From positions 1 through 33,352 of the forward strand of contig JAITLC010000027.1 in the NCBI GenBank assembly GCA_031278095.1: a stretch of DNA of 33,352 bases, written 5' to 3'. A program made the translations under genes and the position numbers. The notes beneath the pieces were generated by a model that saw only the letters and a program-made list of their open reading frames with translations, was not told the origin of the DNA and searched no databases. This DNA comes from Treponema sp. (GTDB lineage Bacteria; Spirochaetota; Spirochaetia; Treponematales; Breznakiellaceae). This document shows, piece after piece, positions 3,078-7,195 of the stretch (positions are counted from its first letter, which is position 1; every line of letters begins with the position of its first letter).

Positions 3078-3205
3078 ACCTTATTATCGGCGGCTTTGGG
3101 GTTTTTATGAGCCTTTTCCTTTCGGTCCTACTATTTCGAGTCTGTCTATGATAGAGTCTTTCCAAACCCCGGCTAGTTTCGGAACAGCCTCAGACACTAT
3201 TTCAT

Positions 3206-3234
3206 TTGAAAAAAATATGGAAAAGGGCTATACA
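3206..3234 (+). promoter_or_regulatory. sigma-70 promoter of nrdJ
   Basis: -35 TTGAAA (3206-3211), 17-bp spacer, -10 TATACA (3229-3234). Transcription should start near 3241, which places the paired NrdR-like boxes over and just after the start site and leaves a leader of about 60 bases before ATG 3300. Confidence 0.7.
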
Positions 3235-3236
3235 TA

Positions 3237-3283
3237 CCCATCTATATGGTGTATCATTTAAAAAACCACACCATATATACTGT
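3237..3283 (+). promoter_or_regulatory. pair of NrdR-box-like operators
   Basis: The downstream box ACACCATATATACTGT (3268-3283) matches the known NrdR box (ACACwATATATwGTGT) at 14 of 16 positions by eye. The upstream box (3237-3252, ending TATATGGTGT) is weaker, at about 10 of 16. The two start exactly 31 bp apart, the three-helical-turn phasing typical of paired NrdR sites. The inner halves also form an inverted repeat, ATATGGTGT / ACACCATAT. Position over the start site suggests repression of the reductase by nucleotide-loaded NrdR. No nrdR gene is in the window. Confidence 0.7.
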
Positions 3284-3299
3284 AGGTAAAGAGGATAAC

Positions 3300-6200
3300 A
3301 TGAAATTCCAGCGTTTGTTCACGGATCCGGTAAAAGGACCCTATGATGGCATTGTCTTTGAAAAAAGGAAGAGTGAAATTCGGAATCCTGACGGAAAGGC
3401 GATATTTTTGGAGGAAGCGGTCATTGTCCCCTCTTTCTGGAGCCAGATAGCTACCGATATTATGGCCCAAAAGTACTTCCGCAAGGCCGGAGTGCCTTCG
3501 AATAAGGTCTATGAATGGGAAAAATGGCTTCCCCATGCCCCGGAAATTCATATTTCTCTCCCGGAAGATGGGGCAGAGCACGATTGCCGTCAGGTTTTTC
3601 ATCGTTTGGCCTTTACCTGGATGGATTGGGGCAGAAAAAACGGGTATTTTGACAGCGAGGAGGACGAAAAAGCCTTCTATGACGAGACTTGCAACATGCT
3701 TGCCTGCCAGATTGCCGCTCCCAACAGTCCCCAATGGTTCAACACAGGACTCTATTCGGTCTACGGCATCGACGGGCCCGCCCAGGGTCACTACTACTTC
3801 GAGACGGAAAAAGGGGAAGCGGTAAAGTCCGGCTCAGCCTACAAGCGTCCCCAGCCTCATGCCTGCTTCATCCTGTCTATCGAAGATGACCTGGTGAACG
3901 AAGGGGGCATCATGGATCTGGTAACCAGGGAAGCCCGGCTCTTCAAGTACGGCTCCGGAACCGGTTCCAACTTCTCCAAGATCCGGGCCGCGAATGAAAA
4001 ACTTTCAGGCGGCGGGGTTTCCTCCGGGCTTCTTTCTTTCCTCAAGATCGGCGACCGTTCCGCCAGCGCCGTCAAGAGCGGCGGTACTACCCGGAGGGCC
4101 GCCAAGATGGTTACGCTGGACGTGGATCACCCGGATGTGGAAAAGTATATCGCGTGGAAAGCCGGAGAAGAACACAAGGTTGCCTCCATGGTTACCGGTT
4201 CCGAGATCGTAAAGAAGCATCTTGAGTCAATCAAGAAGGCCCTTGCCGGTTTCCGGGGGCCGGAAACGGATAAATTCAATGCGGAAAAAAACCATGAACT
4301 TGCCGCCTGCTTGCGCCAGGCTCTGAATGACAAGATTCCTTCCGCCTATCTCTATCAGCTTCTGCGCCGTCTGGAACAGGGTGATGATGAGGTTGAGCCC
4401 CAGGTTTTTTCTACCGCCTGGGATGATGAAGCATACAATACCGTGTCGGGACAGAGTTCCAACAACAGTCTCCGGGTAAGCGATGAATTTATGCAGGCGG
4501 TTCAGGAGGATGAAACCTGGAAACTCACAAGCCGGGTGTCGGGCAAGGAGTTTAAAACCGTCAAGGCTCGTAAAATCTGGTCGGATATTGCCCGTTCAAG
4601 CTGGCAGTGCGCCGATCCCGGCCTTCAGTATCATACTACCATCAATGACTGGCATACCTGCCCGGCGGGAGGGGAAATCCGGGCCAGCAATCCCTGTTCG
4701 GAGTATATGTTTCTCGATGATACGGCCTGTAATCTGGCTTCAATCAATCTGGTCAATTTTTACGACAGACAAAGCCGCCGTTTCAATGTAGACGGTTACA
4801 TTCATACCATTCAAATCTGGACTACGATTCTGGAAATCTCCGTGGTTATGGCCCAGTTTCCCTCAAAAAAAATTGCGGAGCTTTCCTATCAATACCGGAC
4901 TCTGGGTCTGGGCTATGCCAACCTGGGGAGTCTCCTCATGCTGATGGGTCTGGCATACGATTCTCCCGAGGGCAGGGCGGTTGCCGGCGTTCTCTCAAGT
5001 CTCCTCAGTGGAGAAGCCTATACCCAAAGCGCCGTAATGGCCGGAAGTCTCGGGCCTTTTGTTCGTTTTGCCGAAAACAGGGATTCCATGCTCCGGGTAA
5101 TCCGGAACCACCGCCGGGCAGCCAATAACGCTCCCGCTTCGGAGTATGAAAGGCTCAATACCGTTCCCAGAGGCATCGATCCTTCAGCCTGTCCCTCCTA
5201 CCTTCTGGAAGCTGCCAAAGTTTCCTGGGACAAGGCGCTTCAGTTGGGGCAGGAGTACGGCTTCCGGAATGCCCAGGTAAGTGCAATCGCACCCACGGGA
5301 ACCATCGGGCTCCTCATGGACTGCGATACTACGGGGGTAGAACCGGATTTCGCTCTGGTCAAATTCAAGAAACTTGCCGGCGGCGGTTACTTCAAGATTA
5401 TCAACCAGTCCGTGCCCCCTGCCCTGGAGTCTCTGGGTTACAAACAGGATGAAATCGACAGGATCGTTGCCTATGCAACGGGCTGGAAAACCCTGAACGG
5501 AGCCCCCGGCGTCAATACGGAGAATCTTGCCGCAAAAGGTTTCGGTCCCGGGACGCTGGCCGTTCTGGAAGAGGCGATAAAAACAAGCCTCAATCTTGAA
5601 GGGGTGTTTAATGTCTGGATTCTTGGTAAGGATTTTGTTGAAAAGAACCTCAAGGTGCCGGAATCAACCTGGAGTCTCCCCGGTTTCAGTCTCCTGAAGC
5701 ATCTGGGTTTCAGTCAGGAGGATATTGATGAGGCGGAACTGTATGCCTGTGGAACCATGGGGCTTGAAGGAGCTCCCGGTCTCAAGAAGGAACACTATCC
5801 GGTCTTTGATACCGCCACTCCTTCCGGGAAAAACGGCACGCGTTCCATCTCCTGGCAGGCCCATATCGGCATGATGGCCGCGGTACAGCCTTTCATCTCC
5901 GGGGCTATTTCAAAGACGATCAACATGCCCAATGCGGCGGACTATGAAGATGTAAAAGGAGCCTACATGCTCTCATGGAAGAGCGCTCTCAAGGCGGTAG
6001 CCCTGTACCGGGACGGCTCCAAACTCTCCCAGCCCCTCTCCAGTTTCGCTCCCGGTACAGATCCTCTGGCGGACACGATCATCGCTCTGGAGCAGGGCAT
6101 GGTCAGGAGTCCTGTCCCTATGGCGGATCGGCCCGTCCCCCGGAATCAGCGGAAGGGGCTTCCCAACCGCAGGGCCGGTTATACCCAGAAGGCAAAGATC

Positions 6201-6908
6201 GGCGGACATTCTATCTTTATCCGTACCGGTGAATACGACGACGGTACCCTGGGGGAGATATTCCTCGATATGCACAAGGAAGGCGCTGCTTTCCGGAGCC
6301 TCCTCAATAGTTTTGCCATTGCCGTTTCCCTGGGACTTCAATACGGGGTGCCTCTGGAGGAATATGTTGATGCCTTTACCTTCAGCCGCTTCGAGCCCAA
6401 CGGCATTGTCCAGGGCCACGACTATGTAAAGATGGCGACCAGCGTTATCGACTACATCTTCAGAGATCTTGCAATCAGTTACCTTAAGCGTACCGATCTG
6501 GGACAGATAAAGCCCGACGATCTTCTGGCTACCGGAACCAAAAATGATTCAGCATCCCAACAGGGGGTCTCCTCCGGGAATCAGGGCCCGGATGAAAAAA
6601 GCCGCTCAAGCCGGGAGAAGACCAGCGCCGGTTTTAAGCCCAGGGGACTTCAGGCAACCCAGACTGCGACAACCAGTTCTTCCGTAAAGCCGAGAACATC
6701 CGGCACCGCGCCAAGCGCCTCTCCCCTTCAGTCTGCTTCCCGCAATACCGGAGCCGTTCCCCCGCAGAGCGATGCTGCCAAAATTGCCGAGGCGAGGATC
6801 AGAGGTTATGAAGGCGATCCCTGCCCCAACTGCGGTTCCTTCACCCTGGTACGCAACGGTACCTGCATGAAATGCGATACCTGCGGAGGGACAACAGGCT
6901 GCAGTTGA
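3300..6908 (+). CDS. nrdJ: adenosylcobalamin-dependent (class II) ribonucleoside-diphosphate reductase
   Basis: Reduces ribonucleotides to deoxyribonucleotides using a B12-generated thiyl radical; cytoplasmic, oxygen-independent. The protein has 1202 aa, as usual for the long NrdJ type. Active-site residues are visible: C189 in PHACF and C477 as the redox pair, and the radical C466 in NPCSE with N464 and E468. The 11-residue spacing C466-C477 matches the C408/C419 pair of the Lactobacillus leichmannii enzyme. The phosphate-binding loop appears as APTGTIG. Residues ~1080-1170 are a Ser/Thr/Pro-rich linker, followed by a Cys-rich tail (C1175, C1178, C1189, C1192, C1195, C1201) that combines a zinc ribbon with a likely redox-shuttling end. 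The start at 3300 follows AGAGGATAAC; the upstream in-frame ATG at 3246 falls inside the operator and is rejected. It stands alone as its own transcription unit. Confidence 0.95.
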
Positions 6909-6958: not shown

Positions 6959-7110
6959 CCAGAAAAATTTTAACCGCAAAAACGCCGAAGGCGGGGAAGG
7001 ATGCTGCTGTTTTGTTCTTTCCGTGCCAGGATTCAGGACCGTGTAGGGCATTCTGGCAACAGGGAAAAACAGAGGTATCTTCGTTTGAGAGGAAATTTAT
7101 TATACTCTCC

Positions 7111-7135
7111 CCCGCGAACCGGTGAGCGGGTTTTT
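7111..7135 (+). terminator. rho-independent terminator
   Basis: Stem CCCGC (7111-7115) / GCGGG (7126-7130) with a loop that contains the self-complementary ACCGGT, followed directly by TTTTT (7131-7135). It lies about 200 bases after nrdJ and is the first terminator-like structure downstream of it. Confidence 0.6.
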
Positions 7136-7195
7136 GAGTCCATACCCCGATTCGAAGATTGGTTTACAGCTTTTCAGGGGGTAATGATTTTAACC

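Follow-up and report, generated by a model that had tools for sequence, protein, structure and literature searches.

The promoter of nrdJ, the gene for the B12-dependent ribonucleotide reductase of this gut Treponema, very probably carries an NrdR operator at positions 3237-3283 of the window (the whole 33,352-nucleotide stretch of DNA analysed), through which the gene would be repressed in response to dATP. We infer binding by NrdR, its nucleotide dependence, repression, and the presence of nrdR in this organism; the boxes, their phase and conservation, the promoter register kept in relatives and the NrdR of congeners were observed. Sensing of dATP and ATP at nrdJ would follow the example of the NrdRs that have been studied, whose binding needs dATP plus ATP (PMC9110341, PMC12051234).

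A pair of NrdR-like boxes upstream of nrdJ

Box 1 (CCCATCTATATGGTGT, 3237-3252, plus strand) matches the consensus ACACTATATATAGTGT at 11 of 16 positions, and box 2 (ACACCATATATACTGT, 3268-3283, plus strand) at 14 of 16. The boxes are 31 bp apart, start to start, with a spacer of 15 bp, and the halves that face each other form a perfect inversion of 10 bp (TATATGGTGT / ACACCATATA). The first-pass annotation had described two ACAC-AT-rich-GTGT boxes with 31-bp phasing and a downstream box matching at 14 of 16 positions; both were found where it placed them. When the 300 bp upstream of nrdJ were dinucleotide-shuffled 20,000 times, their combined score of 25/32 was never reached. The spacer is within the range of NrdR operators, i.e., 14-17 or 24-27 bp, which sets the centres of the boxes a whole number of helical turns apart and of which four studied NrdRs prefer 14-17 bp (PMC12051234). 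The pair is placed on the promoter of a reductase gene whose coding sequence starts at 3300, with box 1 between the -35 and -10 elements and box 2 just beyond the predicted transcription start.

The gene itself (3300-6908, plus strand; NCBIfam, Pfam) encodes a class II adenosylcobalamin-dependent ribonucleotide reductase of 1202 amino acids. Its product scored 1779 bits against NF005736 (NCBIfam PRK07562; cut-off 1737) and contains PF08471 (Ribonuc_red_2_N), PF02867 and TSCPD domains, with the class II N-terminal domain and the barrel over curated cut-offs, which bears out the earlier assignment to the B12-dependent class. It is the sole Ribonuc_red_lgC protein found in the assembly (157 contigs, 92.5% complete), in which a class III nrdD was not found. 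There was no ATP-cone in NrdJ or elsewhere in the assembly and, with NrdJ lacking this domain, NrdR control would be its main dATP feedback.

Several other features of these loci were observed. A stretch of about 66 bp (window ~3138-3203), immediately upstream of the promoter and bounded by ACTATTTC at 3130-3137 and 3196-3203, is an insertion missing from three congeners. Downstream of nrdJ, a stretch of ~32 bp (window 7108-7139, minus strand) occurs in about 20 copies across contigs of the same genome and is also present before nrdD in the congener G003. As for the nrdD not found in the assembly (G000), C70:1-2058 ends ahead of the place syntenic with nrdD in G003, and the other flank (C68:87398 onward) diverges, so that the gene may have been lost or may lie in a gap. 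In G021, G023, G031, G033 and G034, the nrdJ frames are 1405-1599 amino acids long and match the query in separate segments, the break falling mostly close to residue 190 of the query; they look like genes carrying in-frame insertions such as inteins.

Conservation of the probable operator and its promoter register

Conservation of both boxes upstream of nrdJ in close relatives, as expected in the first-pass annotation, was found. The nrdJ upstream regions of relatives were taken from homologues found at the protein level in MAGs and genomes of Treponema and of other spirochaetes, and removal of near-copies left 90 distinct sequences. A box pair was present in 75 of these (Treponema and kin), compared with 0 of 900 mononucleotide shuffles. 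The distance between the boxes was 31 bp in 41 pairs, 32 bp in 25, 30 or 33 bp in six and 42 bp in three, so that 72 of 75 lay 30-33 bp apart and 66 of 75 at 31 or 32 bp. A symmetrised matrix derived from the relatives' pairs gave ACACTATATATAGTGT, a result that is partly circular because candidates were initially ranked by that consensus; no such circularity affects the preference for distances of 31-32 bp. Within the genus, the operator is nearly invariant in the four members compared and the DNA directly upstream is variable, box 1 being identical in all four but for one base.

The relatives also define the register of the promoter. When their operators were aligned on box 1, TTG occurred at -8 or -9 of the box in 54 of 71, and a TATAAT-like hexamer was commonest at +15. 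Box 1 thus fills the gap between the -35 (TTGccA) and the -10 (TAtacT), the last T of the box being also the first base of the -10. The corresponding promoter in the window is probably TATACA (3229-3234, plus strand; 8 bp before box 1, at the position of the relatives' TTG), followed after 17 bp by TATCAT (3252-3257, plus strand), the first T of which is common to box 1. TATCAT is invariant across the four genus members, and two congeners read TATGCA at the -35 position. Because TATACA matches TTGACA poorly, the -35 assignment in the window rests on position.

This register replaces the one proposed in the first-pass annotation, which had taken TTGAAA-17-TATACA as a good promoter. The strings are present (TTGAAA at 3206-3211, 17 bp, TATACA at 3229-3234), but TTGAAA is not conserved within the genus, its counterpart in congeners being TTCGAA-like or missing, and it adjoins the ~66-bp insertion specific to the window. 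TATACA as a -10 was rejected as mis-registered, since it sits where relatives have their -35. Transcription would start near 3264, which would place box 2 a few bases into the transcript. With a start there, an in-frame ATG at 3246, which falls within box 1 and upstream of the predicted transcription start, would not be transcribed. The translation start proposed at the ATG at 3300 is supported: homologues start at the same codon, and a Shine-Dalgarno-like AGAGG (3290-3294, plus strand), 5 nt before the ATG, is kept in congeners.

The boxes are degenerate in a consistent manner, in that those of the genus keep the inner G/C position and lose the outer one (box 1 has A at position 4, box 2 has C at position 13). 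The window boxes consequently fail a published survey pattern for NrdR boxes that asks for both G/C positions in each box (PMC12051234), and only six of 72 conserved clade operators satisfy it in both boxes; we treat it as a search pattern and not as defining NrdR operators. G at position 13 of box 2 is present in only 27 of the 72. In Streptomyces, changing one GC pair per box reduced binding close to 60-fold (PMC9110341). Streptomyces NrdR has aspartate at residue 15, close to the bases, and the congener NrdR has glutamate there. Among 62 distinct NrdR sequences from relatives, 46 have glutamate at residue 15, 15 have aspartate and one has asparagine, and R17 is invariant; a comparison of residue 15 with operator degeneracy included just six D15 NrdRs with operators.

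A model of 47 positions, built from 49 clade nrdJ operators including that of the window, was used to scan the 3.05-Mb genome. The best match was the window site (E = 1.3e-8), a top rank that is partly by construction, although the absence of other full pairs is not. No further full pair was detected by this model. The next match, on contig C54, was partial (E = 0.009) and adjoins a poly-G run near the contig end, and was rejected as a second operator.

The nrdR gene and alternative explanations

No match to NrdR or to an ATP-cone was found in the assembly. The lack of an nrdR gene, named in the first-pass annotation as an outcome that would count against its reading, therefore holds literally for the assembled sequence, but the contigs on either side suggest that the assembly has a gap here. 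Two congeners, G003 and G004, carry NrdR, that of G004 with Zn-ribbon and ATP-cone over cut-off. The block preceding nrdR in both is present here at 92% identity up to the last base (10432) of contig C96, which ends inside a gene of this collinear block; in the congeners nrdR lies ~2.3 kb further on. The far side of the G003 block picks up again on a different contig, 856 bases into C17, and the intervening 5.1 kb, containing nrdR and its neighbours in G003, was not found in the assembly. Since C96 breaks inside the block that leads to nrdR, the gene is probably missing because of a gap in the assembly. The same break, together with the intact state of the operator and the presence of NrdR in 39 of the 50 genomes in which related nrdJ loci were found, argues against the operator being a relic, i.e., that the strain has truly lost nrdR and now expresses nrdJ constitutively. 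We consider such a loss unlikely, even though an assembly of this completeness yielded no NrdR or ATP-cone match and none was found in G001 and G002 either (just 79% and 77% complete, respectively).

That the two palindromes bind some dimeric repressor other than NrdR seems more improbable still. AT-rich palindromes with ACAC and GTGT ends are used by more than one regulator, and several relatives that carry NrdR have no boxes at nrdJ; yet the sequence of the boxes, their phase of three or four helical turns, and their placement at nrdJ, nrdD and nrdR all fit NrdR. The inverted repeat of the window, perfect over 10 bp, might instead act as an RNA hairpin, in attenuation or translational control, a reading to which we give hardly any weight: pairing was maintained in 80.0% of cases across 49 operators versus 80.7% in shuffles, paired changes were not in excess, there was no Rfam match, and box 1 would not be transcribed under the conserved promoter register. 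With no covariation across the 49 operators, a hairpin at nrdJ was rejected, as was a cobalamin riboswitch or other Rfam element, the only Rfam matches in the window being two tRNAs.

We also asked whether boxes and nrdR were lost together. The 99% complete G034 has no ATP-cone anywhere and no box at nrdJ, whereas L099, L077, L078 and L040 have nrdR but an nrdJ without boxes; simple joint loss fits the former and not the latter, and there is no clean rule.

An NrdR operator remains the best explanation. It is favoured by a pair that exceeds chance, is conserved at nrdJ with three-turn spacing and stands in a fixed register with the -35 and -10 elements; by pairs at nrdD in G003 and at nrdR in many relatives; by NrdR in the congeners and the break in C96; and by G034, in which ATP-cone and nrdJ box are both missing. 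Against it are the assembly without nrdR, the lost outer G/C positions, and the relatives with NrdR but no pair at nrdJ. If dATP were plentiful, an NrdR tetramer loaded with ATP and dATP would occupy both boxes, three helical turns apart, and, by analogy with studied systems (PMC9110341, PMC12051234), would bend the promoter. With box 1 between -35 and -10, and box 2 past the start near 3264, RNA polymerase would be excluded; a drop in dATP would release NrdR and allow nrdJ to be expressed.

Putative operators at other genes and comparison with known systems

A second pair of sites at another nrd gene, suggested in the first-pass annotation as a source of support, was found in G003: this congener, whose nrdD is complete, has a 32-bp box pair upstream of that gene. 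At nrdR there were no boxes within the genus. Among distinct nrdR upstream regions of the wider family, pairs were spaced at 39-44 bp in 20 of 60 and at 28-34 bp in 15 of 60. Pairs at nrdJ are nearly all three-turn and operators at nrdR(-nrdD) mostly four-turn (Fisher p about 1e-10, a value that is indicative only, because it used slightly different nrdR counts, 12 versus 20, and ignores shared ancestry). The promoter register of the four-turn nrdR operators is also fixed, with TTG at -5 in 17 of 20.

In L001, L002, L003, L010, L020, L204, L218 and others, the nrdR(-nrdD) boxes are mostly 42 bp apart, corresponding to a 26-bp spacer and four turns, with the -35 TTG at -5 of box 1, and such operators often share a genome with three-turn operators at nrdJ. 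Three to five box-like sites, ~31, 36 and 14 bp apart, precede nrdR in L197, L198, L201 and L203, an arrangement that suggests multi-box autoregulation.

In vitro, both spacings are bound by the NrdRs of four bacteria, and the native long-spacer sites of Streptococcus pneumoniae NrdR were bound 13 times more weakly than the short-spacer sites of S. thermophilus (PMC12051234). A graded regulon is a tentative idea that we consider rather doubtful: three-turn operators at nrdJ would be tight and four-turn operators at nrdR/nrdD looser, an E15 NrdR would tolerate degenerate outer half-sites, and rising dATP would silence the B12-dependent enzyme earlier than the anaerobic class III one.

These results correct the promoter map of nrdJ and describe a conserved set of operators in the spirochaete phylum that is tied to a definite promoter register. 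Most such operators, with their degenerate outer half-sites, would escape the published survey pattern, and the occurrence of three- and four-turn operators within single genomes offers a natural test of the role of the long spacer. In the literature, of which our coverage was incomplete, we found nothing past incidental mentions that links NrdR to ribonucleotide reductase genes of Treponema or other spirochaetes.

The long spacers (25-26 bp) of S. pneumoniae operators are four-turn, like those at nrdR(-nrdD) in the relatives and unlike the three-turn nrdJ operator of the window; these spirochaetes mix both spacings in one genome, whereas in most Streptococcus species the spacers of the two promoters are comparable (PMC12051234). 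The two NrdR boxes of the Escherichia coli nrdHIEF operon have the same 15-bp spacer as those described here, although that operon encodes a class Ib enzyme and has a Fur site nearby, whereas nrdJ is class II (PMC12051234). Another close parallel is nrdRJ of Streptomyces coelicolor, where a class II, B12-dependent reductase likewise has paired NrdR boxes on its promoter (PMC9110341). The nrdJ operon of that species begins with nrdR, whereas here nrdJ stands alone and the nrdR of congeners is elsewhere; GC pairs are highly conserved in the boxes of Streptomyces (PMC9110341), and the outer one in each box is lost here. The nrdJ operator would thus represent the same kind of control as that of Streptomyces nrdRJ, i.e., a well-supported new example and not a new mechanism.
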